Of a stretch of 32,904 nucleotides of DNA, positions 384-29,957 are shown piece by piece. Source of the DNA: an uncultured bacterium (GTDB lineage: Bacteria; Planctomycetota; UBA8108); assembly GCA_913042995.1 (NCBI GenBank), contig CAJWMA010000006.1, forward strand, positions 1 to 32,904, written 5' to 3'. A program made the translations under genes and the position numbers. The notes under the pieces were generated by a model. That model was given only the letters and a program-made list of their open reading frames with translations, made no database searches and was not told the DNA's origin. Position 1 is the first letter of the stretch, and every line of letters begins with the position of its first letter.

Positions 384-423
384 AACCGGGCCCGTCTCCT
401 GCTGGAGACGGGCCCGGTTTTTT
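384..423 (+). terminator. Rho-independent terminator after the oxidoreductase gene
   Basis: Perfect 14-bp stem CCGGGCCCGTCTCC (386-399), TGCT loop, GGAGACGGGCCCGG (404-417), followed by TTTTTT (418-423). Confidence 0.93.
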
Positions 424-455
424 CTGAACTCCCCCATCCCCCAAGGAGAATCCCT

Positions 456-1991
456 GTGAGCCAGTTCGCCACCCTCGACTGGGCCATCGTGATCCTCTAC
501 CTCCTGGGCTCAGCCGCCATCGGTATCTGGAGCCGGCGCTACGTCAAGAATATGAGCGACTTCGTGGTGGCTGGCCGGTCGCTGAAATCGCACCTCGGGA
601 TCGCCACCATGATCGGCACCGAGCTCGGGCTGGTGACGGTGATGTTCGCCGCCCAGAAGGGCTTCACCGGCGGCTTCGCGGCTTTTCACATTGCCCTCAG
701 CGCCGGTGTCGTCTGCCTGGTGGTCGGCTGGAGCGGATTCATCGTCGTACCTCTTCGCAGGATGGGAGTCATGACCATCCCCGAGTTCTACGAGAGGCGC
801 TTCGGACGCGGTGTGCGCATCCTCGGAGGTCTCATCCTGGCACTGTCGGGGATCCTCAACATGGGAATGTTCCTCAAGGCCGGCTCGATCTTCGTTGTCG
901 AAGTTACCGGGCTCGAGGGAACCACCATCAAGTGGGTCATGACCGCCCTGCTTGGACTCGTGCTCTTCTACACGATTCTCGGCGGCATGTTCTCCATCGT
1001 GCTGACCGACTACGTGCAGTTCGTGGTGCTCTCCTTCGGCCTCATCGTCACCACCCTCTTCGCCATCCAGGAGCTTGGCTGGCAGAACATCGTCAATGGG
1101 GTGGAGAAGCTCAAGGGCGCCGGTGGCTTTGACCCGATCGCCAGCGAGGCATTCGGTCTGGACTACGTAGTCTGGATGATCTTCCTCGGATTGGTGTCCT
1201 GCGCGATCTGGCAGACCGCGGTGATGAGAGCCTGCTCGGCGCGAAGCGTCGAGGACGTCAAGCGGATCTACGCCTGGAGCTCGATCGGCTTCCTGGTCCG
1301 CTTCCTGGTGCCCAACTTTCTCGGCCTCTGCGCGCTGGTTTACTTCGCCGATCACGCGGAGCTCTTTCCCGAGGGCCTCGAAGGTGAAGGCGGCAGCGGC
1401 CTCCAGGCCATGCCCCGGTTCCTCGGCCACCTGCTGCCAAGCGGCCTGCTCGGACTGGTGGCGGCCGGAATGCTGGCCGCCTTCATGTCCACTCATGACA
1501 GCTACCTGCTGTGTTGGAGCTCTGTGCTCACCCAGGATGTCATCGCGCCGCTTGGGGGCGACCGCATGTCAAACCGCAGCCGCCTGAACCTGACACGCCT
1601 GCTGATCTTCGCCATCGGCATCTTCCTGCTCATCTGGAGCCTCTGGTACGAACTCCGCCAGGACCTCTGGGACTACATGGCCATCACGGGCGCCATCTAC
1701 TTTACCGGCGCCTTCGCCCTGCTGGTGGCGGGTCTCTACTGGAAAAAAGCGAGCCGGGTCGGCGCCTACCTTGCCCTCGTGGTCGGACTTTCAGCTGTGC
1801 TGGGCCTCAAGCCCATCCAGGAGACCGTCCAGAAAATCCTGGGTGTCGGGCTCGAGTGGGATGGTGAAATCATAGGCATCTCAACCGTCGCGGCCAGCTC
1901 GTTGGTGATGGTCCTCGGCTCGCTGGCCTTCCCGGACCGTCGGGGGCCGGAGCCCTGCGATGAAACCGCCAAGAGGGAGGTGACGACATGA
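456..1991 (+). CDS. Sodium:solute symporter (SSS family)
   Basis: 511-aa multi-TM protein, MSQFATLDWAIVILYLLGSAAIGIWSRRYVKNMSDFVVAGRSL... ; GTG start preceded by AAGGAG. Confidence 0.93.
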   Translation: MSQFATLDWAIVILYLLGSAAIGIWSRRYVKNMSDFVVAGRSLKSHLGIATMIGTELGLVTVMFAAQKGFTGGFAAFHIALSAGVVCLVVGWSGFIVVPLRRMGVMTIPEFYERRFGRGVRILGGLILALSGILNMGMFLKAGSIFVVEVTGLEGTTIKWVMTALLGLVLFYTILGGMFSIVLTDYVQFVVLSFGLIVTTLFAIQELGWQNIVNGVEKLKGAGGFDPIASEAFGLDYVVWMIFLGLVSCAIWQTAVMRACSARSVEDVKRIYAWSSIGFLVRFLVPNFLGLCALVYFADHAELFPEGLEGEGGSGLQAMPRFLGHLLPSGLLGLVAAGMLAAFMSTHDSYLLCWSSVLTQDVIAPLGGDRMSNRSRLNLTRLLIFAIGIFLLIWSLWYELRQDLWDYMAITGAIYFTGAFALLVAGLYWKKASRVGAYLALVVGLSAVLGLKPIQETVQKILGVGLEWDGEIIGISTVAASSLVMVLGSLAFPDRRGPEPCDETAKREVTT

Positions 1992-2155
1992 TAGAATCCT
2001 GGGCAACCTTCTGGGGCTGGACCCTTGGCGCCAGCCTCGTGATCTTCGCGGTGATCTCTGTGGTCGTCACCATCGGCGGATTCCGCGACATCCGGGCCCT
2101 GCTGGCTAAAGCCTCCGACAACGAAGAAAACGGCCCCGAAGGTGACGAAGAATGA
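1988..2155 (+). CDS. 55-aa single-TM small protein, candidate symporter accessory protein
   Basis: Read directly from sequence (below the ORF-track length cutoff): MIESWATFWGWTLGASLVIFAVISVVVTIGGFRDIRALLAKASDNEENGPEGDEE*. ATGA overlap with the SSS stop (1988-1991) and ATGA overlap with the downstream CehA-like start (2152-2155). Confidence 0.85.
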   Translation: MIESWATFWGWTLGASLVIFAVISVVVTIGGFRDIRALLAKASDNEENGPEGDEE

Positions 2156-4236
2156 ACCGGCTCTTCACAACGGCCGCCGCCCTCGCCCTGCTGCTGGCTG
2201 TCCGCCCCGCCGAAGGAGAAACACTCGATGGCAAGCTTCACCATCTGCGCTCCGGCAAGACCCGTGAATGGAGCGCGTTCCCCGTCAGCGCCGAAGGTGA
2301 CCGGCTCGAGCTGAGCTTCCAGGCGGCGAAGAATGCCGCCGCCGTGACGCTGGTGCTGCGCCAGCGTGACGTCAAGATGGCGTGGAGGGTGGAGCTCAAC
2401 AGGAAACGCCTCGGCCAGTTGGCTCGCGATGAGAACGACCAGCTCATTCGATTTACGGTTCCGCCCGGAGCGCTCCAGGACGGCGCCAACCAGCTGCGGA
2501 TCACCCCCTCGGCTCAACACGGCGATGACATGCTCGTTGGCGAGATCCGTCTCGAACCGCGCGCTCCAGCCGTCTTCCTCCACGAGGCCAAAGTCCATAT
2601 CCGGGTGCTTGATTCCGACAGCGGCAAACCGCTGCCCTGCAGGTTGACCATAGCGGCCGACTCAGGCGCCCTGGCGCTCGTCGGCGCTGAATCGAACGAA
2701 CGCCTGGCCGTACGCACGGGCGTGATCTACACAGCCGACGGCGAGGCGGGCTTCGGACTCGAAAGCGGCGAATACACCATCTGGGCCGGACGGGGCTTCG
2801 AGTACGGAATCGACAAGACCATCATCAAGGTCAAGCCCGGCGACCGGGTGAGCCGCACCCTGAAGATTCGCCGCGAGGTGCCGACGCCCGGGCTGGTAAG
2901 CTGCGACACCCACATCCACACCGTGACCCACTCCGGCCACGGCGACTGCGATATGCCCGAGCGCATGATCACCATCGCCGGCGAGGGTCTCGAACTTCCC
3001 ATCGCCACCGACCACAACAAACACATCGACTACGTGCCCACGGCGCGCAAGCTTGGCCTCCTGCGTTATTTCACACCGGTCATCGGTAACGAGGTCACCA
3101 CCCGCCATGGTCACTTCAACGTCTTTCCGATCGCGGCGGGCGTCAAGCCCCCGGACCACACTCCGGAGGACTGGAAAACGATCTTCGAGAACATCCGCGG
3201 CGCCGGCGGGGGGAAGCCCCAGGTGGTGATCCTCAACCATCCACGCGATGTCCATGGCGGCTACCGGCCGCTGGGTCCCCTGCACCACAACGAAGCGGCC
3301 GGACAAAACATCGACGGGGAGCGACTCGAGGCCAACGCCATCGAGGTCATCAACTCCGCCGCGCTTCACTCCGACCCGCTGCGGATCTTTCGCGACTGGA
3401 TGGCCATGCTGAACAGCGGCATGCGGCTCACCCCGATCGGCTCGAGCGACTCGCATGAGGTCTCAACCAAGATCGTCGGACAGGGGAGAACCTACATCTC
3501 CTGCGCTGACGGCAACCCGGGAAAGATTGACGTGGAGGGCGCCGTGAAGGCGCTGCTGGCTGGCAGGGTCTCGGTCTGCCTGGGACTGCTCGCCACCATT
3601 ACCGTAGATGGCCAACACGGCCCCGGCGACCTGGCCCCGGCAAACGATGAGCTCCGTGTAGAGCTCGAGGTTCTTGGTCCCTCGTGGTCCCGGCCAGGCA
3701 AGGTCCGGCTCTTCAGCAACGGGCTGGTGATTCGCGAGGCGGACATCCCCGTGGCCGCGGCCCGACGCCCGGGCAGCAAATGGAAGAAAACCTGGGTCAT
3801 ACCCAGGCCGCTCCACGACGTCCACCTTGTCGCCGCCGTCACCGGAAAGAGTGACGCCTTTCCCTTTCATCCGATCGCCAAGACCTACCAGCCTGTTACG
3901 CCGGATTGGCGGCCGTATATTTTCGGCTCCACCGGCGCCGTCTGGATCGACGGCGATGGCGATGGCAAGCCGACCAGCGCGCGACGCCATGCGGCGCGGA
4001 TCGCCGACAGCGTCGAAGACTCTCTCTCCGCTGTTGTCGACAAGCTCGCCGTCTGCGACGAGGCGGTCTCCACCCAGGCGGCCGCCGAGCTGGAGGCCCG
4101 GGGGGTCGACATCGACAGTGACAAGGCCCGCCGCCGCATAGCAGGCGGCTCCAGGGCCGCCAGGCGGGGCTTCAAGGCCTACCTGGACGCGAAGGCCAAC
4201 TCGAAAGCCGCCGTCGAAGCCGCCTCGCGGAAATAA
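2152..4236 (+). CDS. CehA/McbA family metallohydrolase (PHP-type), secreted
   Basis: 694 aa with signal peptide; metal-ligand motifs DTHIHTVTHSGHGD, ATDHNKHIDY, GNEVTTRHGHFN, NHPRD, GSSDSHE; C-terminal DGDGDGK motif. Confidence 0.88.
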   Translation: MNRLFTTAAALALLLAVRPAEGETLDGKLHHLRSGKTREWSAFPVSAEGDRLELSFQAAKNAAAVTLVLRQRDVKMAWRVELNRKRLGQLARDENDQLIRFTVPPGALQDGANQLRITPSAQHGDDMLVGEIRLEPRAPAVFLHEAKVHIRVLDSDSGKPLPCRLTIAADSGALALVGAESNERLAVRTGVIYTADGEAGFGLESGEYTIWAGRGFEYGIDKTIIKVKPGDRVSRTLKIRREVPTPGLVSCDTHIHTVTHSGHGDCDMPERMITIAGEGLELPIATDHNKHIDYVPTARKLGLLRYFTPVIGNEVTTRHGHFNVFPIAAGVKPPDHTPEDWKTIFENIRGAGGGKPQVVILNHPRDVHGGYRPLGPLHHNEAAGQNIDGERLEANAIEVINSAALHSDPLRIFRDWMAMLNSGMRLTPIGSSDSHEVSTKIVGQGRTYISCADGNPGKIDVEGAVKALLAGRVSVCLGLLATITVDGQHGPGDLAPANDELRVELEVLGPSWSRPGKVRLFSNGLVIREADIPVAAARRPGSKWKKTWVIPRPLHDVHLVAAVTGKSDAFPFHPIAKTYQPVTPDWRPYIFGSTGAVWIDGDGDGKPTSARRHAARIADSVEDSLSAVVDKLAVCDEAVSTQAAAELEARGVDIDSDKARRRIAGGSRAARRGFKAYLDAKANSKAAVEAASRK

Positions 4237-4245
4237 ACGCTCCCC

Positions 4246-7200
4246 TCAAGGGGCGCAGGCGTCCTCGCAGCCCGGAATCGGTACGCATTCGGTACCCAGC
4301 ACCGGCGGCGCGCCTCCCTGGTAGAGGAAGTTGAGCACGTAGATCGCGTCCGCCATGTGGATCGTTCCACCGCCATCGCTGTCGAGAAGCGCGCGGTTGC
4401 CTTCATCTGCTGCCGAACCATCCCCGCAGGGCAGCTCAGCCGGGGCGCCCTGGAAGAGATAGGTCAGGACCGAGACCGCATCGGAGAGATTCAGCTGGCC
4501 ATCCTGGTTGACGTCGCCGGGCATCTGCAATCCTCCGCCGGGCTCGACCTCTCCATCGTCCGCGGCGCCCGGCGTCCCCAGGCGTCTCGAGCTCGCTCTC
4601 CAGCTCGCCTCTTCACCCCAGCCCTCCAGCGGCAGGCTCGTATCACGGATCACCAATGAGTAGCCTTCGCCATCGGTCTGCGGGTGCCAGGTGTCGCTGT
4701 AGGAAAAGTTGTGGATCGGAACCTCCAGCTCGCCGAGGAATTCAATCGTCTCGGTTCTGTCGCTGAAGCTGCCGGAGAAGTCTCCCAGGACCGTGATCCC
4801 CTCGGTGCCGTAGCGCGCGGTGAAGGCCTCGAGATCTCCGACGAGAACGCCATACTCGCCCGCGCCGAGCACCTGGCCCTCCTCGAACTCGAAGCGTACC
4901 CCCCGGCTGAATTTCATGCCCGCCAGGTCGAGAGGTTCCGTCCCGATATTCTGAAACTCGATGAATTCCATATTCGTGGCGCTGAAATTGTCTTCCGGGT
5001 CTTCCGCGAGGGTCGGATCGGGCGGGTGATACATCAGCTCGGTGATGCGCAGGGTCGGGATGCCGGTAACGAAAACCGCGCTGCGGGGCAGACTCCAGAA
5101 CTCCGGCCCGCTCCGAACCCGGGCGGTTACCTGGGTATTCTCGGACAAGACGATCGGGGCCTCGTAGAGAAGGGCCGCCTCCCCCAGCACCGCCCGCGGC
5201 CCCTTCGGGTCGCTGCCATCGAGCGTGTAGTAGATCTGCCCTTCATCCCCCGAGGTGATCGACAATTCGAAACCCGGGTCGATGAAGCCTCCGTTGGAGC
5301 TGAACTCGGGTCTTGTCGGCAGGCCGATCAGCTGCCCATCCATCCAGGCGACCCGGTTCTCGAGCCAGTTGCTCATCCAGCTGATCTCGTCCTCCCAGGT
5401 CGGGGCGATGTAGAAGTTCGGCCAGACATAGCTGCCAAGAATGTTCCATCTCTGGAAATTGCGCTCCTGCGACTCGCGCAGCTTCCCGGCCCACTGGTCG
5501 ACCGTCCCGAGCAGGTAGTCGAGGCTGAACAGCTCGCCCCTGAGCTGGCGCCAGCGCTCACTGTACATGGCCCGGAAGCCCCGGGTGTCCTGGAAGAGCC
5601 TGGCATACCAGGGATAATCACCGGCGCCCAGCTGCGGATAGTACCAGCCAACCGGGTTGCCCCCATTGAGATAGTTGGCGTTGCCGAGGGAGAGATTGTA
5701 ATCCCAGATGGGGCCCATCCTGAGCCTGCCGCCGCGCGGCTTGTACATGAAGGTGCTCAATCGGTAGCCGTCGATGTTCTTGGCTATCTCAACCATGATG
5801 TGATGGTCGATAAAAGACATCACGTCGATGTGGGCGGCGTACCCGGCCTCAGGATCAGTAAAGTTGGCCCCGTAAAGAGCGGCCTCAAAGGCGTTGAGAT
5901 AATTGCGGATGTAGGTGCGCTGCGCCGGGCGGATGAGCCTCTCCTTGGGATAGAAATAGGCCAGCCTCTGCCCTCGGCTGGTGGTCAGGCCTGTATCACC
6001 GGGGTCGAGACGATCCTTCTTGAGAATATAGCCGCCGGTAACCTCGGGAGCGCTCTCGTCACCCGGCAGGAGCCTCTCGATGTCAACCCGGTCACCATCT
6101 CTCTTGATCTTCTCCATGAAGACATACACGCCCATGTACTCCGCCGGCGAAGAGCCGATGCGGGTGTTGCGGCGGGTGTTCATATAGACCTCGACAAACT
6201 TGGTCCGCACCGCGTATTGCCCGATGTGGTTGCTCCACTGATAGCAGAGAACGTTTCGCATGAGCGATTTGTCGGAATAGGGCGCGTGGAGAATCCAGTC
6301 GGACTCCGCGGGCATCCCCAGGACCGAGACATCCAGATCTTCGTTCGCTTCATCCCAGGTCTCGAAGGCGTACTGCTTCTTGGGGAAGCCCGTCGAACTC
6401 GAGCCCCTCACCTTCATGCCCGCCCTGCCGACATAGTCCGGCTCTCCGGTAATGCTCGCTCGTCCATCCTCACCAACATCGATGAACTGGCAGAAAACCT
6501 GGGTATAGCTGCCCTCCCCGATTCCCCGGCCGAAGGTGTCGATCAGGACGATCGGCAGGTTCGAGGTGAAGGCCTGCACCGAGTCCGAGAGCATCAGGTA
6601 GCTCCTGGAGACCGACTCCCCGGGAAGTGAACCCTCGACCCAGACCCTGGCGGTGAGCGTGGCCGCGGCTGTGACCGCGACGGGGCCGGCATAGACTTCA
6701 GAGCCCGCATCGGGAATCGTCCCATCAAGGGTATAGCGGATCACGGCCCCCTCGCCCTCGGTGGCCAGCTCAACCATCAGGTTGCCGCCATACGCGCCGG
6801 AGTCATGAGAGAAGGTCGGGTCCGGGCTGACCGAATCCACCCCCTGGCGATTCGGACCGCCCGGGGTCGGCTCGACGAAATACTGGCGCACCTCGGCGTT
6901 CACCGGGCCGAGATCGATCAATTCCAGGGTCGGGTTGACCAGGAAATCATTGCTCGTGGTGGAAACGTTGAGACCCTGGATCGCGAGCACGTTAACACCA
7001 TCGCGCAGCAGCGCGGTGTGTTCGGAGAGATCAAACTCCTCAAACTCCAGGGCCCGGGTGTCCGGATTGCTGGTGTCGGCCTCGGAATCCCAGGCCAGCT
7101 CGGCGGGCGGCGGGCCGTTGGCATCAACAATTCTCTCTCCATTGAGAAAGAGAACGAAACCATCATCGTATTGCATGCCGAGCACCATGGAGTCGATCGC

Positions 7201-7917
7201 CGAGCTGTCAGCGACATTGAAGGTCGAACGAATGTAGATCGAGCCGTTCACGCGGTACATGGCCTCCTCGACATCGGTCCCTATCATCGGGGCAAAGCTC
7301 CTGGCGGAGTTGGGGGACCGTTCGAGACCGACGCCGAAGGTGCCCTCGCGCCAGGAAGAGTCATCAAATCCCGGAGCGACCCAGTCGAGACCGGTGGCCG
7401 CATCCGCGGGGACATGGACCCGCACAGCGGTTTCCGAATCGACAACCTGGGTAAATTCCGAGTCTGTCGCCAGCCCCCAGGAAACATCGGACACCTGCCG
7501 CGGATATTGAGGCGCGAAAGCCGCGACAACATTCGACCCATCGGGCGTGATCAGCGCCAGCAGCTCTCCCTGTCTCTCAAGCTTGAAGTTGGTATGAAGC
7601 GGCGAGTTCGGCAGCCGGCGATCCTTGTCTGAGGCGAAAACCAGGAGATAGCGCCGGGGGCCGAGGGTCACCTCGGGAAACTCCCACTTCGTAAGATCCT
7701 CGAGATCGTCGGTCAGCTTGTAGCCGGAAAGATTGATCGCCGTGTCGCTGTTGTTGTAGAGCTCGATCCAATCGCTGTACTCGCCATCCTCATCCTGTAG
7801 ACCAGAACGGTTCAGCGAAAGAATCTCGGTAATCACCAGTCCTTCCTGCCCGTAGGCGGGAACAGAGGCCAGCAGAACCAGCCCTGCCAGCAAACAGCAT
7901 CGGCCTAGATGTCGCAT
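4246..7917 (-). CDS. CotH kinase family protein with lamin-tail domains, chitobiase-like/FN3 repeats and C-terminal dockerin type I
   Basis: ORF track 4246..7941; start refined to MRHLGRCCLLAGLVLLASVPAYG (7917), preceded by a GGAG motif. Contains LVITEILSLNRSG...DWIELYNNS (lamin tail), KVRGSSSTGFPKKQYAFE / DWILHAPYSDKSLMRN / GPIWDYNLSLGN (CotH), YYTLDGSDP repeats, and GDVNQDGQLNLSDAVSVLTYLF (dockerin). Confidence 0.9.
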   Translation of the reverse strand: MRHLGRCCLLAGLVLLASVPAYGQEGLVITEILSLNRSGLQDEDGEYSDWIELYNNSDTAINLSGYKLTDDLEDLTKWEFPEVTLGPRRYLLVFASDKDRRLPNSPLHTNFKLERQGELLALITPDGSNVVAAFAPQYPRQVSDVSWGLATDSEFTQVVDSETAVRVHVPADAATGLDWVAPGFDDSSWREGTFGVGLERSPNSARSFAPMIGTDVEEAMYRVNGSIYIRSTFNVADSSAIDSMVLGMQYDDGFVLFLNGERIVDANGPPPAELAWDSEADTSNPDTRALEFEEFDLSEHTALLRDGVNVLAIQGLNVSTTSNDFLVNPTLELIDLGPVNAEVRQYFVEPTPGGPNRQGVDSVSPDPTFSHDSGAYGGNLMVELATEGEGAVIRYTLDGTIPDAGSEVYAGPVAVTAAATLTARVWVEGSLPGESVSRSYLMLSDSVQAFTSNLPIVLIDTFGRGIGEGSYTQVFCQFIDVGEDGRASITGEPDYVGRAGMKVRGSSSTGFPKKQYAFETWDEANEDLDVSVLGMPAESDWILHAPYSDKSLMRNVLCYQWSNHIGQYAVRTKFVEVYMNTRRNTRIGSSPAEYMGVYVFMEKIKRDGDRVDIERLLPGDESAPEVTGGYILKKDRLDPGDTGLTTSRGQRLAYFYPKERLIRPAQRTYIRNYLNAFEAALYGANFTDPEAGYAAHIDVMSFIDHHIMVEIAKNIDGYRLSTFMYKPRGGRLRMGPIWDYNLSLGNANYLNGGNPVGWYYPQLGAGDYPWYARLFQDTRGFRAMYSERWRQLRGELFSLDYLLGTVDQWAGKLRESQERNFQRWNILGSYVWPNFYIAPTWEDEISWMSNWLENRVAWMDGQLIGLPTRPEFSSNGGFIDPGFELSITSGDEGQIYYTLDGSDPKGPRAVLGEAALLYEAPIVLSENTQVTARVRSGPEFWSLPRSAVFVTGIPTLRITELMYHPPDPTLAEDPEDNFSATNMEFIEFQNIGTEPLDLAGMKFSRGVRFEFEEGQVLGAGEYGVLVGDLEAFTARYGTEGITVLGDFSGSFSDRTETIEFLGELEVPIHNFSYSDTWHPQTDGEGYSLVIRDTSLPLEGWGEEASWRASSRRLGTPGAADDGEVEPGGGLQMPGDVNQDGQLNLSDAVSVLTYLFQGAPAELPCGDGSAADEGNRALLDSDGGGTIHMADAIYVLNFLYQGGAPPVLGTECVPIPGCEDACAP

Positions 7918-8134
7918 TTTCTCGTCTTCTCCGCTCAGCATGACAACCCAGTAATAAGCTGAATCTACGGCTTGCCGGCAACAGGCAGGCTGCGCCTGAC
8001 CGGTTCGGCTCGGTAACTCTCAGACCCCCTCAACCCGACTCAATAATATCCTTCAGGACCGGCGGCTCAAAGTCCCAATTCTTTCCCCCATAAAAGGTTG
8101 AAGCCCTTCCGCTGCGACTGAAGCAGGGCCTTTC

Positions 8135-8151: not shown

Positions 8152-8209
8152 TTATGATAGAATCCGCCTCTGTGCAGATCTCAGGTGCTGTATTCACCCC
8201 GGAAAATTG

Positions 8210-11200
8210 ATGAAGCTGCTTGGTAAGGACCGTCGCTACCGGATTCTTGAAACCCTTGGTAAGGGCGGCAGCGGAGCCGTCTACAGGGCCTTTGATTCAG
8301 TAGAGAAGAGAGAGGTCGCGATCAAGGTGCTGAGCGCGGAGCTCTCCGCCTCGCAATCATCCCTGGCCAGCGAGGAATTCCGCCTCCTTGCCTCCCACAC
8401 ACACGCCAACCTGGTCCAGGTCTACGACTACGGCACCACGACCGATGGCCTGCGTTACTTCACCATGGAGCTGCTTGAAGGTGAGGATCTCCTCGGCTAC
8501 CTGGGCCGCACCCTGCCCGCACCAGCTGAACGAGCGGCGGCTCCGCACCTGGCCGACCTGCTCGACCAGGTGCTCGCGGCCCTCGATTACATCCACTCCA
8601 GGGGCCTTGTACACCAGGATCTGAAACCGCAGAACATCCTGGTCTCGGAGCAGGAGGGAGCGGCCCGGGTGAAGCTGATTGATTTCGGGCTTGCCAGGGC
8701 GGCTGGAACTGAGAGCCAGGAGCTCTCGGGGACGATCGAATACCTGGCTCCGGAGCTCATCAAGGGAGAGCCCCCCACCGCCCGAAGCGACCTCTACTCA
8801 CTCGGCATCCTTCTCCATGAAATCTTCCTGGGCCAGCCCCCCTTCCACGGCAGAAAGATGGAGGAGCTCATCAAGGGGCATCTCGAGGGCGGCGGCGTGG
8901 ACCCCGGCTCTCTTCCGCGAGAATACCGCGAGCTGACCATGCGGCTCCTGGAAAAAGACCCCGCGGATCGGCCGCGTGCGGCGGAAGAGGTTCGCCGGGA
9001 GCTGCCTGGCGCGCGCGAACGAACGCCGCATTCCCTGCCAGCCTTCTCGCCGGTTTTCGTCGGCCGCGAGGCGACCCTCTCAAAGCTTCTCGCACGCATC
9101 GCCGCTGAACCGGACGGCGGCCCCGGCGGTGCGCTGCTTCTCGGACCCACCGGGATGGGAAAATCCCGGCTGCTGCGCGAGCTCCAGGTTCGAACGCAGG
9201 TGAGCGAAATTCCGATCTACCTGGAAGCCTGCAGAGAGGAAGATCATCCCGGAGCGCTCCTCCAGCGTCTGCTCGGGCGCATCGCGGCCGAAAACGATGG
9301 CGAACACGGGCTCGTTGCAAGACTTGATGAATGCCTTGATAACCTGCTCCAGGATGACTCTGCGGGCGCCTCCATCGAGAGCTTCCACTTCAAGGTAACC
9401 AACCTCCTGGTGGAGCTCGCCGGGGGCGAAGCCTGCGCCATCGCCATCGATGACCTCCAATGGGCCGACAGCCTGAGCCTGAACACCCTTGCCCACCTCG
9501 CGCGCCGCGCGGCGGGAGCGGGGACGCCTCCAGGGCTCTTTCTTGCCTGCAGGCTCGATGGGGAAGAGGACCTTGGCTTTACCCGCAACCTCGAGGAGCT
9601 CTTCGATATTCCCGAGTCCCTCGAACGAATCACCCTCGAGGGCCTGGAGCCCGGTGACCTGTCCACCTACATGGAGAGGCTGCTGGGCCACGCGGAGGGA
9701 CTCCCAGAGGGGCTGCGGGAGCCGCTGCAGAGGGACACAGGCGGCAATCCTTTCTATATCGAAGAATACCTCCGATTGCTCGGGGACCTCGGCGCCTTCG
9801 AACGCAAGGGCTCTACCTGGACCCTCAAGGCGGATGTCTCCATCCCCATACCCGGCTCGCTCGAAGACGCCGCGCGCAGGCGCCTGGAAAACGTCGGTGG
9901 GCGGCGACGCGCCGTCCTCGAGGCCGCCGCTGTCCTGTCCAGACCCTTCAGCATCGAAGAGCTGCGCGGACTGCTGGCGCTCATCGATGGGGAGAAGCCA
10001 TCCCCCAAGGGAAAGCTGCGCGAGGCCCTCGATGGCGTTGTCCTTGACCAGCTCCTCAGGCGCGAGGGAAGCCTCTACTCCTTCGCGCACGCGGCGCTCG
10101 AACAGGCCGCCTATGCGGGCCTTGAAGAGAAGGCCCGCCGGAGCCTGCATGGGCAGGCCGCCGCCTGGCTGCTGCAGGAGAGCGGCCCGGAAAAGGAGCC
10201 GCCGCTTGAAGAGCTCGCGCGCCACCTCTTCTTCTCCGACCATCCGGAGCGCGCAAGGGAGAGCCTTGAGCGCGCGGGGCGACAGGCCCTTCGCCAGGGC
10301 GGCCTCCGCGAAGCCTCCACCTGTCTCGGCCGGGCCATCCAGGTCAGCAGGGAGCCCGAAGATCTCTTCTCCTCCTGCCTGCTGCGCGAGGAGGTCTGGG
10401 GCAGGCTTGGCCGCAAAGAAGAACAGCTCGAGGACATCGGACGGCTGCGCGAGCTGGCCGATGAGCTTGGCGACGAGACCAACCGAGGCGAGGTCACCCT
10501 GCGAGAGGCTCTCTATCTCGACTCCGTGGGGAAGAAGCGGGAGGGGCTTGCGAAGCTCGATGAGATGCTCGAAACGGGAACCGCCGAGGGTTCTCTCCGA
10601 GCACGGCTCCTGAATCGCCGGGGAATGTTTCTCCTGTTTCTCTCGGAATTCGCCGAGGCGGAGAGCTCGCTGCGCGCGGCCCTCCAGGTCGCCGGGGAGC
10701 TCGAAGACCAGGAGCTGCGGGCGGAATGTCTCCAACTGCTGGGCTCCGGACACTACCTCCAGGGCATCTACGATGAGGCTCTCGCGGAAATGGATGGAGC
10801 GCTGGCGATCAGGCGGGAGCTTGGAGACAACCAGAGAGCGGGCGCCCTGGAATCGAACATAGGGCTCATACGCCTCGACCGCGGCGAACTGGAAGTGGCC
10901 GAAGAACACTTCAAGGGCTCGCTGAAGACCTTTCGCCGGATCGGCCTGCGCAGCGCCGAGGCCGGCAACCTCGTGAACCTGGGGCTGGTATATACCGAGA
11001 TGGGACGGCTGGAGCGCGCCCTCGACTTCATCAGCGAGGCCCTGCAGATCCGGCGAGAGCTCGCCCATCGCCAGGGCATCGGCACCGACCTGGGCAATCT
11101 CGGGGCGGTGTGGATGCGCATAGGGAAATACGAAAAGGCCATACCGCTGCTGAAGCAGGCCATCGAGATCGCCGAGGAGGTCGAAAATCTCCCCTCGCTG

Positions 11201-13339
11201 GCGATCAACGAGAGCCGCCTGGCGACCATCCTCATCCACAAGGGGGAGGGGGAGGCGGCGGCCCGGGGACTCGAGCGAGCAAGGGCAGCGGCGGCGGATG
11301 GCGGCGGCAGCCGCCAGCGTCTCGAGATCCTCCTGGCTGGCGCGCGCCTCCAGCTCCACCAGGGGGCGCCGGCCGAGGCTGTCGGCGAGTTGGACCGGGC
11401 GCTCGAGGTGGCCTCCAAGGCGGGAGCCGGCAATTCGGTGATCGAGTGCCTGGGCCTGCGCGCCGAGGCTCTCATCGATAGCAACTCCCTGGAGGAGGCC
11501 GACAAGGTCTCCCTCGAAGCTGTCCGCCTGCTTGAAGAACACCCCGGCTGGCTCGATTGCTCCCAGGAGGTCTGGTTTACCCGTCACCGGGCGCTCACCG
11601 CTCTCCATTCAAGCGGACTGAAATCCGGCGACCCGGACGCCGCCCTCAGAAGGGCCTACATCCTCCTGCGGGAAAAGGCCGACGCCTTTGAAGACCCGGA
11701 CCTGCGAAGCGCCTTTATCGAGAGCCTGCCCCGCCACCGGGAGATCGACCGCGCCCATGCGGAACTCCTGACGAGAAGGCGGGAAGAGGCCGGAACCCGG
11801 GAGCGCTCCTTCTACGAGATCGCCAAGAGCCTGCACTCGATCGTCGATCTCGACCCGCTGCTAGACCACCTCCTTGAGCTGGCGATCGAGACCACCCGGG
11901 CAGGGAAGGGTCTCATCCTCCTGCGCGACCGGGAGCAGTCCCTGACAATCAGGGCGGTCCGCGGAATGCAGCGGGAATCGGTAACTGACGCCACGGAAAT
12001 CTGCCAGAGCGTAATCGAGGACGTAACCGTAGGCGGGGCGCCGGTGCTGGCCGTCGATGCGAGCTCTGACGAGCGCTTCCGGCAACGCGAAAGCATCATC
12101 TCTTTTAAGATCCAGACGCTGATGTGCGTCCCCCTCAGCGTCCGCAACGAGGTCCTCGGGGCCGTCTACGTTGATGGCCGGGGCACCGACAGCTTCTCCA
12201 CCGAAGATCTCGACTTCCTGGTTTCTTTCGCCCAGTTGGCGGCCATAGCCATCGATAACGCCAACCTGATGAAGAGCCTCAAGCAGGAGAACCTCTACCT
12301 GCGTAAGGAGGTTGAGACCCGCTACCAGTTCCAGAACCTGGTCTGCAACTCCGAGGTGATGCAGCAGCTCGCCCATCTCCTGGAGAAGGTCTCCCGCTCC
12401 GATGTCAGCATCCTGGTTACAGGCGAGACCGGAACCGGCAAGAGCATGGTCGCCCGGGCGGTCCATTACGCCAGCCAGCGCAGCTCGAAGCCTTTCGTCA
12501 CGGTCGATTGCGGAGCCCTGCCGGAAAACCTCCTGGAGAGCGAACTGTTCGGCCATCTCAAGGGCGCCTTCTCGGGCGCCGTCCACGACAGGACCGGGCT
12601 CATTGAAGAGGCCGATGGCGGGACCCTCTTCCTCGACGAAGTGACCAACACCTCGCTCGAGCTGCAGGCCAAGCTGCTGCGGGTGCTGCAGGAGGGCGAG
12701 ATTCGCAAGGTCGGCGAAAACAAGCCGCGGAAGGTCGATGTACGGATCCTGGCGGCGACCAACACCCCGATCCGGGAAGCTGTCGAGGAGGGAATTTTTC
12801 GCGAAGATCTCTTCTACCGCCTGAACGTCGTACCCGTAGAGATGCCCGCGCTGCGCGAACGCAGAGAGGACATCTCGGCGCTCACCATGATCTTTCTCGA
12901 ACTCGCCTGCGAGCGCTCCGGACGAAAAATGACCGGCTTTACCGAGGAGGCCATGAACCTGCTGGAGGCCGCCCCCTGGCGGGGCAATGTCCGTGAGCTC
13001 GAGAATTCGATCGAGAAGCTGGTGATCCTGGCCGAGGCGGAGCGCATCGATGGAGATACGCTGCGCGCGATCCTGCCGGGACTCTCAGGCGCGGAGAGCC
13101 CCGCGAGGCTTCCAGCGGCGGCGGCCCCAGCCGCCGCATCGCCGGAAGCGGAGCTGGCCAGGTTGGAAGATTTCGATCGACACTGGCAGGAGGCTGAGCG
13201 GCTCTACCTGCTCGCCCTGGTTGAGAAGGCGGCGTGGAACCTCTCAGCGGCCGGGCGAATCGCAGGGGTCCGTAACCGCAACACCCTCATCTCCCGGCTC
13301 AAGAAACACGGCATTCGAAGACCCGGCAAAGACAAATGA
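8210..13339 (+). CDS. Multidomain regulator: Ser/Thr protein kinase + AAA/ATPase (AAA_16-like) + TPR + GAF + sigma-54 interaction AAA+ domain + Fis-type HTH
   Basis: ORF track 8207..13339 begins at TTG; the adjacent ATG is at 8210. Kinase motifs LGKGGSGAVY, VHQDLKPQNIL, DFGLA, APEL; ATPase GPTGMGKS and AIDDLQWAD; TPR-like helices; GAF (VLGAVYVDGRGTDSFSTEDLDFL); sigma54 module GETGTGKS, LFGHLKGAFSGA, GGTLFLDEV; C-terminal HTH NLSAAGRIAGVRNRNTLISRLKKHGI. Confidence 0.93.
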   Translation: MKLLGKDRRYRILETLGKGGSGAVYRAFDSVEKREVAIKVLSAELSASQSSLASEEFRLLASHTHANLVQVYDYGTTTDGLRYFTMELLEGEDLLGYLGRTLPAPAERAAAPHLADLLDQVLAALDYIHSRGLVHQDLKPQNILVSEQEGAARVKLIDFGLARAAGTESQELSGTIEYLAPELIKGEPPTARSDLYSLGILLHEIFLGQPPFHGRKMEELIKGHLEGGGVDPGSLPREYRELTMRLLEKDPADRPRAAEEVRRELPGARERTPHSLPAFSPVFVGREATLSKLLARIAAEPDGGPGGALLLGPTGMGKSRLLRELQVRTQVSEIPIYLEACREEDHPGALLQRLLGRIAAENDGEHGLVARLDECLDNLLQDDSAGASIESFHFKVTNLLVELAGGEACAIAIDDLQWADSLSLNTLAHLARRAAGAGTPPGLFLACRLDGEEDLGFTRNLEELFDIPESLERITLEGLEPGDLSTYMERLLGHAEGLPEGLREPLQRDTGGNPFYIEEYLRLLGDLGAFERKGSTWTLKADVSIPIPGSLEDAARRRLENVGGRRRAVLEAAAVLSRPFSIEELRGLLALIDGEKPSPKGKLREALDGVVLDQLLRREGSLYSFAHAALEQAAYAGLEEKARRSLHGQAAAWLLQESGPEKEPPLEELARHLFFSDHPERARESLERAGRQALRQGGLREASTCLGRAIQVSREPEDLFSSCLLREEVWGRLGRKEEQLEDIGRLRELADELGDETNRGEVTLREALYLDSVGKKREGLAKLDEMLETGTAEGSLRARLLNRRGMFLLFLSEFAEAESSLRAALQVAGELEDQELRAECLQLLGSGHYLQGIYDEALAEMDGALAIRRELGDNQRAGALESNIGLIRLDRGELEVAEEHFKGSLKTFRRIGLRSAEAGNLVNLGLVYTEMGRLERALDFISEALQIRRELAHRQGIGTDLGNLGAVWMRIGKYEKAIPLLKQAIEIAEEVENLPSLAINESRLATILIHKGEGEAAARGLERARAAAADGGGSRQRLEILLAGARLQLHQGAPAEAVGELDRALEVASKAGAGNSVIECLGLRAEALIDSNSLEEADKVSLEAVRLLEEHPGWLDCSQEVWFTRHRALTALHSSGLKSGDPDAALRRAYILLREKADAFEDPDLRSAFIESLPRHREIDRAHAELLTRRREEAGTRERSFYEIAKSLHSIVDLDPLLDHLLELAIETTRAGKGLILLRDREQSLTIRAVRGMQRESVTDATEICQSVIEDVTVGGAPVLAVDASSDERFRQRESIISFKIQTLMCVPLSVRNEVLGAVYVDGRGTDSFSTEDLDFLVSFAQLAAIAIDNANLMKSLKQENLYLRKEVETRYQFQNLVCNSEVMQQLAHLLEKVSRSDVSILVTGETGTGKSMVARAVHYASQRSSKPFVTVDCGALPENLLESELFGHLKGAFSGAVHDRTGLIEEADGGTLFLDEVTNTSLELQAKLLRVLQEGEIRKVGENKPRKVDVRILAATNTPIREAVEEGIFREDLFYRLNVVPVEMPALRERREDISALTMIFLELACERSGRKMTGFTEEAMNLLEAAPWRGNVRELENSIEKLVILAEAERIDGDTLRAILPGLSGAESPARLPAAAAPAAASPEAELARLEDFDRHWQEAERLYLLALVEKAAWNLSAAGRIAGVRNRNTLISRLKKHGIRRPGKDK

Positions 13340-16741: not shown

Positions 16742-18928
16742 TCATTTCTTTTTCTCCGCCCTGGAGGCGGCAGGGGGCTCCTTGAACAGGTCAAGGACGT
16801 CCAGCGTCTTTGCGTACTTCCTGAAGGCCTCCCCGCGGCTGGCCTCGAGAATCTCGATGAACTCCTCGAGCTCGCTATTGGATCTCTTCTGCAGCTTCGA
16901 GTAGATGTCCACCAGGACCAGCTCGAGATTTTTCCTGAAGAGACCGGCGGCAAGAATGACGGTGATCTCGTCGTGAACCCTGAGAGCCTTCGCCAGGGCG
17001 ACGCCATCCGTTCCGTGCTCGGCCACCAATGCGCGCGCGTAGTCCCCGGGAGCGGAGAACTTTCCATCTCCATCGCCATCAATCCAGACCGGATTGGTCG
17101 CGCCGACCACGTAGCGGTCATCCTGTGGCGGAGTCCAGTAGGAGTTGTCCAGCGGAGGGCCGGAAGCAATGACGACAAGATGGACATCTTTGGACGGGCC
17201 GCCGAAAACCCAGCGCTCCTTGTACTTCACGATAGCGCTGGAGGGGTGCTGGATCTTCTCCTCGCGCACCTTGCGGCCATTGAGAAAGAGAGCGACCCGG
17301 CTGGCCCGCGCCCACCGGGGCCCCCTGACCTCGATGTCGACCTCGAGATCCTCGCCAACACCGGTGGCGAGGTCTCCGGCGGAAAACATCCCGTTCACCT
17401 TCGCATCCGCCAGGAGTCCCATGCTGACCAGCACCTTGCCCGCCAGGATGTTGTCAACCACCTCGCCTACATTGATACGGCGCGGATCATCCGTCGAGCT
17501 GCGAATGTAGGTCCGGCAATGACCCACCGGCTGGGCTACGGTATGGGAGTCGCTGCCCGCGACCGCCGTCAGCCGATGGCCCGCGTTCAGCAGGGCGAAC
17601 CAATCGGAGAAGTTATCAAAGACCTGCTTTTCCAGGGTCTTGCCGTTGATCACCTCAACCGCGTCAAGGCCGAGCCACTGGCGGCCATCGCTGAATTCGC
17701 CAGAGACGGGATCGAGACCGATCGTACCCCAGGGACCCTTCTTGAAGCCCTCGCGGCGCGGATGGTTACAGATCACCACCCTGACTCCCGGGGTCGCCCG
17801 TACGGCCTTGAGCAGCTTGTCCCAGTCCTTGTGCTTGTGGTTCGCGGGCTTGGCGTTCTTGTCGGCCGGGAAGGCGTTGAAGTGACCGATGGATGTGGTG
17901 AACTCGTTTCCCACCACCGATTTGTAGTGATCTCCGGAGCCGGCCTTGGCGGTAAATGGGCTGTAATCAGTGTGATGGTTGTGATCCGTCGCGATCGCGA
18001 CCTCGACTCCCTCCCCGGCTATGGTCACCACACGCTCAGCGACGCTCGCATCGCCGTGCTTGGAATAGGTCAGCGTGTGAATATGAGTATCTCCGGCGAG
18101 ATAGCCGGTGGTGTCCACCTCCCGCTCGAGAACCAGCTCAACCCGTCTCTTTTCTCCCGGCGAGAGGTCTACGCGGGCCATACCCAGCCCGTACTCGAAG
18201 CCCCGGGTCGCGTAGACCCTGTACTTGCCCGGCTTGAGGGCCAGGTCCAGCCGGCCGTCAAGGGTGTAGGCCGTTCCCTTGCGGAAGGCGAGCTTCGAGC
18301 TCTTCTCGAGCTTGAACTCCGCCGGCTCCTCGACAATCTTCGCCTTCTTCGAAACCAGGCGCACCACGGTCAGCCGGCAGGGCAGGCCCTGGCCCGGCCC
18401 CTCCTTCGAGGTCACCACCACCTCGACCTCCGCCAGGCGCTTCATCCGCGCCACCGAGTGGGCGTGGAGAACGACAGGCCCGAAATAGAGATCGTCGGTG
18501 GTCTTCTCCTCGTATTGCACCAGCAGTACATTGCCTGTCTTTTTCAGCAGATCCGCAGGCACCTTGAAATACTGGATGTTCTCTCCCTTGCCGCCCTTGC
18601 CCTTGACCAGGCTGCCAAGCCGCCGGGAGTTGAGCGTGACGCCGCATTTTGAGTTCACATCGCCTGACCTGATCTCGATGGCTCGTTCAGATTTGTTCGG
18701 CTCAGAGCTGAACCTCAGGCTGATCTTCTTTCCATCGTGCGGCTTCGCCCGGGTGAAGGACTTCCAGTCCTTCTTCTCATCATTGCCGAGGTGAAAGACC
18801 TCGGCGCTGATGACGGTCTCAGCCTTGCCCTGTGGGGCGCCGCTCGCCTGTGGATACGGCAGGAAACGAGCCCCTGCGACCGCTACCAGGCAACAGCAGA
18901 AAAGCAGGCTGACGGCGTTCTTCTTCAT
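16742..18928 (-). CDS. CehA/McbA family metallohydrolase, second paralogue
   Basis: ORF track 16742..19006; start refined to MKKNAVSLLFCCCLVAVAGA (18928). Shares DTHIHT.T.S.HGD, ATDHN.H.DY, GNE.TT..GHFN, NHPR, GSDSHT and VWIDGDGDGK with the 2152..4236 product. Confidence 0.88.
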   Translation of the reverse strand: MKKNAVSLLFCCCLVAVAGARFLPYPQASGAPQGKAETVISAEVFHLGNDEKKDWKSFTRAKPHDGKKISLRFSSEPNKSERAIEIRSGDVNSKCGVTLNSRRLGSLVKGKGGKGENIQYFKVPADLLKKTGNVLLVQYEEKTTDDLYFGPVVLHAHSVARMKRLAEVEVVVTSKEGPGQGLPCRLTVVRLVSKKAKIVEEPAEFKLEKSSKLAFRKGTAYTLDGRLDLALKPGKYRVYATRGFEYGLGMARVDLSPGEKRRVELVLEREVDTTGYLAGDTHIHTLTYSKHGDASVAERVVTIAGEGVEVAIATDHNHHTDYSPFTAKAGSGDHYKSVVGNEFTTSIGHFNAFPADKNAKPANHKHKDWDKLLKAVRATPGVRVVICNHPRREGFKKGPWGTIGLDPVSGEFSDGRQWLGLDAVEVINGKTLEKQVFDNFSDWFALLNAGHRLTAVAGSDSHTVAQPVGHCRTYIRSSTDDPRRINVGEVVDNILAGKVLVSMGLLADAKVNGMFSAGDLATGVGEDLEVDIEVRGPRWARASRVALFLNGRKVREEKIQHPSSAIVKYKERWVFGGPSKDVHLVVIASGPPLDNSYWTPPQDDRYVVGATNPVWIDGDGDGKFSAPGDYARALVAEHGTDGVALAKALRVHDEITVILAAGLFRKNLELVLVDIYSKLQKRSNSELEEFIEILEASRGEAFRKYAKTLDVLDLFKEPPAASRAEKKK

Positions 18929-18968
18929 GCGCAAAGAGTTCCCTGGCGAGGTGAGCTGTGAACTGATG

Positions 18969-18990
18969 ATTATACCCTTCACCGGGCAGT
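18969..18990 (-). promoter_or_regulatory. Promoter -10 (TATAAT) with ACTGCCCGGT element 6 nt upstream, for the second CehA/McbA gene
   Basis: Minus strand reads ACTGCCCGGT-GAAGGG-TATAAT; 40 nt upstream of the refined start at 18928. Confidence 0.6.
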
Positions 18991-19050
18991 GGTTGCAGTC
19001 GTTCACGAAAGGTTTCGGACAGGACAGAGTCTGTTGCTGGAGCTTTCTTT

Positions 19051-26531: not shown

Positions 26532-29500
26532 ATGGCACTCACCAGAACCCAATCCAGTTCAGTGAAAACCGATGGCGGAAGCCGGCGGCCACTGGGGCGA
26601 TGGGGCGGGCTCCTTACAGCCCTCTTCCTGGCCCTGGCCGCCCTCTGCTCAACGGCAAGCCTGCCCGCGCAGCTTGGCGGACGACCCGGCAATGGCATCG
26701 ATGCCAACCGGCCAAGGAACCTGAACCTGAGGCTCCTTCCGAGGGGGCGAGTACGCCTGAACTGGCTTTCTCCCAGGCGCCTCAACTACCAGCAAATCCT
26801 CCGCGCTGATGGCGACGGTGATTTCCGCGTGATTGAAAATCGCCTGCCGGGCGACCTGCAGGTCTATGTCGACCCGAATCCCGGCCGTGGCCCCCATCGC
26901 TACATTGTCGAAGCCAACGGCGACCCGGGCCTGCGGTCCGAGCCCGCGACGATCACGGTGGGAGACCTCGTGGTGCGGAACATGGCCTGCTCACAGATTC
27001 GCGGATCGCCGAGAATCCGTATCACCTGGACACCCGACGACGACAGCCGCCTCATGATACGGCTCGATGGAGAGCCTGCGGAGGGCCTCCAGAACATCTC
27101 GCCAAATCGCCGCCAGGCAACGATCGACGTTCCACCGCCGGGGCCTGGGGGACGAAACTTCGTCGTTGAGATCGTCGCCGCGGACGAACCGGCCGGTCCC
27201 GCCGCGCGCTGTGAAACCCTGGTGGCGACCACCGACCTCCAGGCCGTCAGGAACCTGGAGTGCGCTCGCGCACGAGACAACGAAAGAAGGGTGCGCCTCA
27301 GCTGGGAAGAGAACGAGAGCTACGCCGTCTACGAGATCGAACGCAATGGCGTTGTCCTCTCCGAAACTGAGAGCTCCTCCTGGGTTGACGAACTCCCTCC
27401 CCCGGGGATCGAGCTGCGCTACACGGTAACCGGCCTCACCGCCCGCGATCACCCGGGGCCCGCCAGTTCCTGCGTTCAGGAAGTCGAACCGCCGCCGGAG
27501 ACCACGCTCGCCGGCGAGGTGGTCTTTGATGACAGCACCGACACCCCCCTGGGACGCGGCATCGTCCTTGTCTTCGCGGAGGGAGGAGACGAGCTCCTTG
27601 CCCGCGGTGGAATCGATGACGACGGACGGTTCAACATCGCTGTTGAAAACCACGCTGGGCCCTTCGATCTCGAATACCGGGTCCGCTTCCATGATCATAT
27701 CCGGCTCGGACTGCTCGAAGTCTTCGCCCCCAAGCGCGGCGAAAACGGAACCCCGGGCCGCTTCCTGCGCGCCTTCGCCCCCGCAGTGTCAGCCGGAGAG
27801 AACAACCTCAAGCTGCGCGTCGCTCTTCCCGTCATCACCGTCTCGCCCGAGAGAAGCGGCGTTCGGCGATGGCAGGCCCTGCACGACCACTTCCTCGAGA
27901 CAGGCGAGGGGCTGCTGATCCCGATCGCTACCGATGGAGGAATCGTCCAGGGAAGCCTGAACCTCGTCCATGAGATCGAAAACGTCAGGAACCACTTCCT
28001 GAGACAGTTCGGCAGCAGCCCCCGGCAGGTAGACATGATCGCCTACGGCTTCGCCGGACTCTCGGCCAGGCTCTACGGCCACACCTCCCCGGTCTTCGAG
28101 ACCAGGAGGCTGCTGCTGCTCGGCGCTCCGAACAGGGGAACCCCGCGAGCCCTCGTCGAGACTCGCTCGGACGTTGGCGCCCGGCCGATACGTGGTGGAA
28201 TCCAGGCGCCTGAGGAGCTGGGCTACAAGGCCGCGGACGAGCAAACCTCTCGCTTCCTCGACCTCTACAACGAACGCATCACCAGCTCGAGAGCGACGGC
28301 CCTCTATCTCGTGGCCGGCACAGGCGGACGGCGGGAGCTCGATGACGTGCTTGACTGCGCCGAACACGATGGGCGTGTCTGCCTGCAAAGCGCCCTGGGA
28401 CAGGGCCTCGACCGGGGGATCTTCAGCAACCCTCGCCGCTTCATCCTAGGCTCGGACCACAACAGCCTTGGACGCGACCGGGAGTCACTTGCCCTGCTCG
28501 AACGGCTCGGCTTCGGACGGATCCTCGGCGATGGCGAGGAGGAGGAAGAGGGAAACGCGGGCGATGGCGGCGGGGCTGGAGGAGGAGGCTCCTCGATGAC
28601 CCTCGGCAAGGTGGGGCAGGGCGAGCTGGCGCCCGGCGATGCGCGGGAGATCCCCTTCGTCTCCGACACATCCGGTTCGATCATCATCATCCTGAACTCC
28701 GAAGACAAGGGGCCGCTCAATTTCCAGCTGAGAACCCCGGGGATGGACATCGAAGACGAAGGGATCAACGGCGAGAACGCGGCTGAGCGCGGCTTTGTCT
28801 ATGAATCCTACAACGACGGAGAAGGAACCAACGTCATCTACTTCAAGACCGGTTCCGGAGAACACGGCACCTACCTGGGCAAGCTCGACAATCCCGATGA
28901 CAACCCCGACATCAGGTACACCATCGAATTCCATCTGGAGAGCTCGATCTACCTCAGCAGCGAGCTGGACGGCTACGATATCCCGCTGGGCTCCACCCCG
29001 TTGCTGACCACCGAGCTCGAGGACTCCCAGCTGCTGCCCGGCGGGGTGGAGGTGACCCAGAACGCCCGGGTCTTCTTCCCCGACGGCAGCCTCTCCCTGG
29101 TCGACCTGAACGACAGCGGCGAGGGAGGTGATGCCCAGGCGGGAGATGGCGTCTATTCGTCCACCCTCCCCGAAAGCTCCCAGCCGGGCTATTACATTAT
29201 CGAGATCGAGGCCTCCGACACCGAGGGAGACTCCTTCCAGCGAGCCGACACCCTGCAGCTCCTCGTACGCTCCGACCTCGCCTCCCTTGGCGAAGAGTAC
29301 GAATCCGGCGCCGATGATGTGGAGCAGGAGGGCGATGGCGGAGGCGCGGGGGGCGGGGAGCTCAAGGACAACCTCTGGGTGCGAGGCCTCCTGGATGCAA
29401 ACCGCGGAGGCGACCTGGTCGTCCTGGGAACGCTCACCGATCTCGAGGGCAACACCATCGCCCAGGCCGGGTCTCTCTACTCGCTGGAGTCAGCGGCGTC

Positions 29501-29957
29501 GGAGGTGGGCTTCCAGATCGACTTCGATGGCTACGAGATCTTCGGCTCCCGGTCCGATGGGCCCTATCAGCTCACCAACGTGGAGATCATCGACGCCGGG
29601 GTGGGCTTTATTCGCGCTGACCTCGCCGACGACGTACACACCACCAGCGCCTACAGCTGGAGCGAATTCTCTCTCACAGGCGGACTGCTCTTCCTGCGCG
29701 GAGACACCAACAATGACCAGCAGATAGATATCAGTGATTCGATCACGCTTCTGAGGCACCTCTTCACCGACCCGGACACCGACCTGACCTGCCGAGATGC
29801 CGGCGATGCCAACGCCGACGGGACGGTCGACCTCAGCGACGCGGTCAGCATCGTGAACTATCTCTTCCTCGGCCAGGGCGGCGGCATTCCGCAGCCCTAC
29901 CCCGATTGCGGCCAGAACGAGAACCTCGGCTGCGAATACTACCCCTACTGCCGCTGA
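26532..29957 (+). CDS. Large secreted multidomain protein: FN3-like repeats, lipase-like alpha/beta-hydrolase domain, Gly-rich linkers, choice-of-anchor-X-like module, C-terminal dockerin type I
   Basis: 1141 aa; signal peptide region; VDMIAYGFAGLSARLYGH and LLLLGAPNRGTPRA resemble lipase motifs; DGVYSSTLPESSQPGYYIIEIEA; GDTNNDQQIDISDSITLLRHLF and GDANADGTVDLSDAVSIVNYLFLG (dockerin). Confidence 0.82.
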   Translation: MALTRTQSSSVKTDGGSRRPLGRWGGLLTALFLALAALCSTASLPAQLGGRPGNGIDANRPRNLNLRLLPRGRVRLNWLSPRRLNYQQILRADGDGDFRVIENRLPGDLQVYVDPNPGRGPHRYIVEANGDPGLRSEPATITVGDLVVRNMACSQIRGSPRIRITWTPDDDSRLMIRLDGEPAEGLQNISPNRRQATIDVPPPGPGGRNFVVEIVAADEPAGPAARCETLVATTDLQAVRNLECARARDNERRVRLSWEENESYAVYEIERNGVVLSETESSSWVDELPPPGIELRYTVTGLTARDHPGPASSCVQEVEPPPETTLAGEVVFDDSTDTPLGRGIVLVFAEGGDELLARGGIDDDGRFNIAVENHAGPFDLEYRVRFHDHIRLGLLEVFAPKRGENGTPGRFLRAFAPAVSAGENNLKLRVALPVITVSPERSGVRRWQALHDHFLETGEGLLIPIATDGGIVQGSLNLVHEIENVRNHFLRQFGSSPRQVDMIAYGFAGLSARLYGHTSPVFETRRLLLLGAPNRGTPRALVETRSDVGARPIRGGIQAPEELGYKAADEQTSRFLDLYNERITSSRATALYLVAGTGGRRELDDVLDCAEHDGRVCLQSALGQGLDRGIFSNPRRFILGSDHNSLGRDRESLALLERLGFGRILGDGEEEEEGNAGDGGGAGGGGSSMTLGKVGQGELAPGDAREIPFVSDTSGSIIIILNSEDKGPLNFQLRTPGMDIEDEGINGENAAERGFVYESYNDGEGTNVIYFKTGSGEHGTYLGKLDNPDDNPDIRYTIEFHLESSIYLSSELDGYDIPLGSTPLLTTELEDSQLLPGGVEVTQNARVFFPDGSLSLVDLNDSGEGGDAQAGDGVYSSTLPESSQPGYYIIEIEASDTEGDSFQRADTLQLLVRSDLASLGEEYESGADDVEQEGDGGGAGGGELKDNLWVRGLLDANRGGDLVVLGTLTDLEGNTIAQAGSLYSLESAASEVGFQIDFDGYEIFGSRSDGPYQLTNVEIIDAGVGFIRADLADDVHTTSAYSWSEFSLTGGLLFLRGDTNNDQQIDISDSITLLRHLFTDPDTDLTCRDAGDANADGTVDLSDAVSIVNYLFLGQGGGIPQPYPDCGQNENLGCEYYPYCR

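Follow-up and report, generated by a model that had tools for sequence, protein, structure and literature searches.

A one-helix protein encoded behind, and in some relatives fused to, one branch of bacterial SSS symporters is probably a dedicated transporter subunit

The window analyzed here, a stretch of 32,904 nucleotides from an uncultured member of the Planctomycetota (UBA8108), carries near its start three overlapping genes on the forward strand (Table 1), in which a small open reading frame (ORF) lies between a gene encoding a sodium:solute symporter of the SSS family and a gene encoding a CehA/McbA-type PHP metallohydrolase. The names given to both neighbors in an earlier, sequence-only reading of this DNA hold: the symporter matches PF00474 at 3e-34 with 118.9 bits, which makes it a member at the Pfam gathering cut-off of 22.8, and the hydrolase exceeds the cut-off of the NF038032 CehA/McbA model (135.7 bits against 80). 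The symporter also matches TIGR00813 at 7.6e-49, but its 167 bits lie below the 184-bit cut-off. Its closest solved relatives by sequence are human SGLT1, vSGLT, and SiaT, with SGLT1 being the nearest. The 55-aa product of the small ORF consists of a single hydrophobic segment followed by GGFRDIRALLAK and an acidic tail; this layout of one hydrophobic helix, a basic segment, and an acidic tail, together with the ATGA overlaps on both sides, is directly readable in the DNA, as had been claimed. Both GGAGGTGA, located within the SSS reading frame, and AAGGTGA, located before the hydrolase ATG, are good ribosome-binding sites.

Table 1. Features of the SSS transcription unit and its 5' border (window coordinates)
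Feature	Position	Strand	Basis or detail
Intrinsic terminator, 16-bp perfect GC-rich stem and U tract	384..424	+	fold -36.7 kcal/mol, z -8.1
Shine-Dalgarno AAGGAGA of the SSS gene	443..449	+	sequence
SSS-family sodium:solute symporter, 511 aa, GTG start	456..1991	+	PF00474, 3.4e-34
Shine-Dalgarno GGAGGTGA of the small gene	1976..1983	+	
ATGA, SSS stop/small-gene start overlap (translational coupling)	1988..1991	+	sequence
Small gene, 55-aa single-TM accessory protein	1988..2155	+	ATG start; product MIESWATFWGWTLGASLVIFAVISVVVTIGGFRDIRALLAKASDNEENGPEGDEE
Ribosome-binding site AAGGTGA of the hydrolase gene	2139..2145		
ATGA, small-gene stop/hydrolase start overlap	2152..2155	+	sequence
CehA/McbA-type PHP metallohydrolase, N-terminal hydrophobic signal-like stretch	2152..4236	+	NF038032

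The terminator sits behind an upstream Gfo/Idh/MocA-type gene, whose full-length copy in the congener G001 encodes a Gfo/Idh/MocA oxidoreductase, and delimits the SSS transcription unit on its 5' side, the hydrolase gene being a co-transcribed neighbor within this unit. Only about 30 nt separate the terminator from the SSS start codon, and since this leaves scant space for a promoter, the SSS unit may need read-through or a promoter overlapping the terminator.

Among 148 relatives searched with tblastn, orthologs of the small protein adjoin an SSS gene in G001, G004, G007, and G052 (91, 78, 47, and 54% identity, respectively), and in the two congeners, G001 and G004, the small gene stands at the same place as in the window. 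Its dN/dS ratio between the window and these congeners is 0.24 (G001) and 0.30 (G004), the corresponding values for the SSS gene being 0.17 and 0.24; changes relative to the more distant congener cluster at third codon positions, and frame-shifted readings of the same DNA compared with G001 give ratios of 0.47 and 3.8. Another 28 close pairs gave a finite ratio, which lies between 0.05 and 0.32 in 26; the two others are L051-L054, which differ by four changes in all, and L076-L098 (0.58).

Scanning the genomes of 84,980 species with an SSS alignment yielded at least 80 loci in at least five phyla (Planctomycetota, Verrucomicrobiota, Latescibacterota, Gemmatimonadota, Acidobacteriota, and others), of which six were left out because the sequence ends at or near the SSS stop codon or the SSS frame is broken. 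Among the matches listed, 73 of the 74 assessable loci carry a homologous ORF encoding a one-helix protein of 41-71 aa directly downstream, mostly at -17 to +17 nt relative to the SSS stop codon, with gaps of up to about 137 nt. The sole exception, L080, retains behind an intact SSS gene no more of the small gene than its 3' end (L080:2414-2590), a remnant that reflects either gene loss or an assembly error; the L087 symporter shares the C-terminus of its SSS and is followed 137 nt downstream by an intact small gene. In the set formed by these 73 listed loci and the window (n = 74), a Shine-Dalgarno core is present at -20 to -5 in 61 small genes, compared with 8% of ATGs inside SSS genes taken as a control, and the small-gene start overlaps or abuts the SSS stop codon in 31. 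Because orthologs are in place in the congeners, codon changes are constrained, homologs recur at nearly all listed loci, and Shine-Dalgarno cores are in excess, the ORF is a real gene, beyond chance. The two checks proposed in the sequence-only reading, namely a conserved small ORF at this position in related genomes and purifying selection at its codon positions, were both passed.

The linkage also holds in the opposite search direction. When 294 genomes of the phylum were searched with a profile of the small protein, 37 gave a hit, and the 30 loci fetched comprise 23 stand-alone copies and seven copies fused to SSS; the upstream sequence is long enough to judge for 22 of the stand-alone copies, among them that of the window, and each of these immediately follows an SSS gene of the window's subfamily. 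The window genome contains eight SSS-like matches as against a single small-protein match, which lies beside the window symporter, and seven further genomes or records contain exactly one small-protein match each. On a plasmid of Cetobacterium somerae (Fusobacteriota), an SSS gene, joined by ATGA to a gene encoding a 48-aa protein, is followed by a sulfatase gene, with a ROK regulator gene upstream. This 48-aa protein (WP_023050524.1), the one annotated record seen, is labeled 'hypothetical protein' and matches the small-protein profile, with values of 1.6e-9 when only two sequences are tested and 1.6e-6 over the plasmid. The small protein is almost always encoded directly behind one branch of SSS symporters in at least six bacterial phyla, its prevalence outside the window's phylum being based on the SSS-led scan, six extra genomes, and one plasmid.

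In some longer planctomycetal SSS proteins (L125/L023, L127, L129, L131, L132, L133, and L134/L024), the small domain forms the C-terminus (i-E from 1.5e-5 to 1e-11 in the seven copies inspected). Their C-terminal helix and GGxRDxR motif are homologous to the small protein, and SSS cores show about 30% identity for the two that were compared; in each protein the domain is joined covalently to the SSS core by exactly one additional TM-like segment, whereas in the window it is encoded by a separate gene. L129 shows a second such segment, which corresponds to the final helix of the core and escaped the profile. All fused proteins group in a single clade (support 100/100) lying within the split ones, and since this clade stands on a long branch, the direction of change between the split and fused states is unsure. 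The fusions demonstrate association for the fused relatives and not for the window protein itself; the small protein is probably the equivalent of the last TM helix of these longer transporters. The proposal of the sequence-only reading that the small protein is a symporter partner is well supported by the near-universal linkage in both search directions and by these natural fusions.

Conserved residues of the family comprise W5, W9, L/F13, L17, F/Y20, V27, G30-G31, D34, I35, R/K36, L/M38, and F/L39, and their positions cluster on one helix face (p = 0.001), while the tail is variable and mostly acidic. The conservation foreseen for GGFRDIRALL recurs as GGxxD[IVL][RK]x[LM][FL]. The SSS core has 13 TM helices and ends inside, so that, after one further TM segment, the small helix would begin on the outside and reach the inside with its GGxRDxR end. 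This N-out/C-in topology, predicted from the fusions, agrees with the juxtamembrane net charges of the stand-alone proteins (-0.35 on the N-terminal side and +1.6 just C-terminal of the helix).

As a modeling device, and not as a claim of read-through, the natural in-frame chain of L086, comprising the SSS, its stop codon read as Ser, and the small protein, was submitted to AlphaFold2 (89 rows). The model reached a pTM of 0.83 and a mean pLDDT of 85, with a pLDDT of 77-84 for the 43-residue small helix and a disordered joint (pLDDT under 50); a lone helix likewise folds with good pLDDT, and these scores neither locate a docking site nor prove contact. Foldseek placed human SGLT1 and SGLT2, in complexes with MAP17, first (TM 0.70-0.75), with SiaT close behind (0.71); with an rmsd of about 7 Å to the SGLTs, the position of the small helix may differ from that of M13 or MAP17.

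The 55-aa protein matches no entry in Pfam, NCBIfam, or PDB, and its relatives match none in Pfam or NCBIfam. The highest-ranking candidates, BC85_0335_fam (0.043) and Anthrone_oxy (0.044) for the window protein and ArfB_Rv0900 (0.029), DUF2621 (0.21), and others for its relatives, lie far below cut-offs and align mainly with the hydrophobic stretch; profile matches in PDB to a de novo GPCR modulator (0.25) and to myosin-binding protein C are due to chance. The window protein possesses the features proposed here to define the family, namely a single TM segment with W-x3-W at its start, followed by GGxxD[IVL][RK], in a protein encoded directly behind SSS or fused to its C-terminus.

Small SSS partners are already known. 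In VC_2705-type/DUF4212, PanF/YhdT, and ActP/YjcH (DUF485) systems, a small membrane protein is encoded beside the SSS gene, and the DUF4212, DUF485, and YhdT partners have two TM helices, in contrast to the one hydrophobic segment of the window protein, which matches none of their profiles; the window symporter scores 69 bits with the VC_2705 model, far below its cut-off of 321 bits. NCBIfam NF045580 ('symport_access'), which we take to denote a symporter small accessory protein, is likewise very small (a 33-position model), as the window protein is tiny and encoded beside a symporter gene. The window protein and six relatives do not match NF045580 (35-bit cut-off), and the model finds nothing in the window genome or 20 relatives and only Methanosarcina acetivorans among 14 control genomes; the window protein shares the functional kind of NF045580, not its family membership. 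Given these known partners (NF045580; DUF4212, DUF485, YhdT), the small protein is, as far as sequence comparison can tell, a new family among an already known sort of protein, its pairing in fused and split form being the most telling feature. Literature searches found neither the phrase 'symporter small accessory protein' nor a paper combining DUF4212 with 'solute symporter'; those on MetPS gave nothing useful, and those on transporter auxiliary subunits in general gave nothing on SSS partners.

A further parallel is offered by human MAP17 (PDZK1IP1), an auxiliary subunit of SGLT2/SGLT1 (SLC5, the SSS family); SGLT2 requires MAP17, which binds to M13 of the transporter (PMC9616851). Like the window protein, MAP17 is a single-span partner; unlike it, MAP17 is human, longer, and encoded by an unlinked gene, so that the likeness is one of analogy only, and a profile search against PDB chains, including SGLT-MAP17 complexes, retrieved no MAP17 chain up to E = 10.

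The sequence-only reading had gone further and joined the three genes into one uptake and processing module with a secreted hydrolase. In the window the small gene is ATGA-coupled to both neighbors, and G001 and G004 have the same gene order, which favors a small protein that belongs with the hydrolase, as its membrane anchor or as a component of such a module. Elsewhere among the loci examined, however, the small gene follows SSS without a CehA/McbA gene: the hydrolase gene adjoins the SSS-small pair only in the window's genus (G000, G001, and G004), G007 has the pair with its closest hydrolase homolog on another contig, and fusions are to SSS only. When 33 same-strand downstream neighbors were scanned, only L025, on the same contig as G001, matched the CehA/McbA model, and only two families, both methyltransferase-type, had more than one member; these neighbors include URO-D/MtaA-like proteins (8 of 33), heparinase, peptidases, SDR, and others. 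Upstream neighbors include DUF5107-TPR (6 of 30) and Gfo/Idh/MocA proteins (4 of 30), and sulfatase genes or, at some loci, opposite-strand genes also occur around the pair. A conserved neighborhood beyond the SSS-small pair was not found at the loci examined, and the three-gene module is not supported outside the genus; a hydrolase partner is already contradicted as a general role and highly improbable for this protein. The mixed sugar-related neighbors suggest sugars or sugar derivatives as the substrate of the symporter.

An ORF so short, overlapping both neighbors, might also be non-functional or serve as a translational bridge whose peptide is irrelevant, a reading that is scarcely credible and is already refuted by the codon-level and fusion evidence: selection acts in its own frame, residues are conserved across phyla, the gene has its own Shine-Dalgarno sequence, and its product occurs as a protein domain in fusions, while retention at gaps of up to about 137 nt, at which stop-start coupling is unlikely, speaks against a bridge. 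The small protein could instead be a regulator, not a constitutive subunit, acting as a switchable single-span inhibitor or as a membrane-protease adaptor that protects the symporter or hands it over. Small bacterial proteins of 28-55 aa, such as AcrZ and MgtS/MgtR/MgtU, are known to modulate larger transporters, and MgtR, MgtU, and MgtS act in such ways on MgtA/MgtB (PMC10710835); recognition might occur through the variable, mostly acidic tail. These examples, however, concern other transporter families and share no demonstrated sequence relation with the window protein, and most of their genes are distant from those of their targets or controlled separately; switches such as SgrT or MgtS are under separate control. 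A gene that is linked to SSS at nearly every locus, often translationally coupled to it and in one clade fused to it, fits a subunit of fixed stoichiometry better, and this constant linkage and fusion make a regulator or protease adaptor unlikely.

The near-constant position behind SSS and the occurrence as an SSS tail elsewhere make it very likely that this 55-aa protein serves the symporter encoded immediately upstream as a dedicated single-span subunit. With the overlapping, Shine-Dalgarno-led genes, the subunit would be made beside the nascent transporter; its N-terminus would face the periplasm, the helix stripe W5-W9-L13-L17-F20-V27-GG may pack against the outside of SSS, and the conserved amphipathic segment GGxRDIRxLL/F and the variable, mostly acidic tail would lie in the cytoplasm. 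By analogy with MAP17 and SGLT2, the subunit most likely helps the folding, stability, or activity of the symporter. Whether the likeness extends to a widespread bacterial counterpart of SGLT2-MAP17, in which a branch of SSS has an obligate single-span subunit, separate or as its own last helix, that is required for transport, is evenly balanced; if so, cultured hosts would offer a tractable model for one-helix control of SSS/SLC5 transporters.

Although neither Pfam nor NCBIfam contains a match to the family, its genomic position is as conserved as that of a subunit. Attempts to express these SSS transporters in a heterologous host may fail if the small protein is left out, as happens with SGLT2 when MAP17 is absent. 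The fused relatives offer structural work a ready-made single-chain target and allow a test of whether auxiliaries with a single helix are general in SSS/SLC5 transporters.

Several other features were observed at related loci and in the remainder of the window. A DUF5107 and TPR protein of about 1000 aa is encoded directly upstream of the pair in L027, L028, L031, L038, L055, and L078, which gives a recurring DUF5107-TPR/SSS/small context at Phycisphaerae/Planctomycetota loci. In the window, a second hydrolase homolog (16742-19006, minus strand), 38% identical and lacking a Pfam match, lies about 12 kb away. The minus-strand gene at 4246-7941 encodes CotH kinase and lamin-tail domains, chitobiase-C/Fn3-like repeats and, as judged by eye, dockerin-like repeats at the end, and a plus-strand ORF of 1141 aa (26532-29957) has no Pfam match at E up to 1e-5. 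The plus-strand gene at 8207-13339 encodes a fusion of a kinase with a sigma-54 enhancer-binding protein: its 1710-aa product combines Ser/Thr kinase, AAA, TPR, GAF, and sigma-54 activator domains, the last with an AAA lid.
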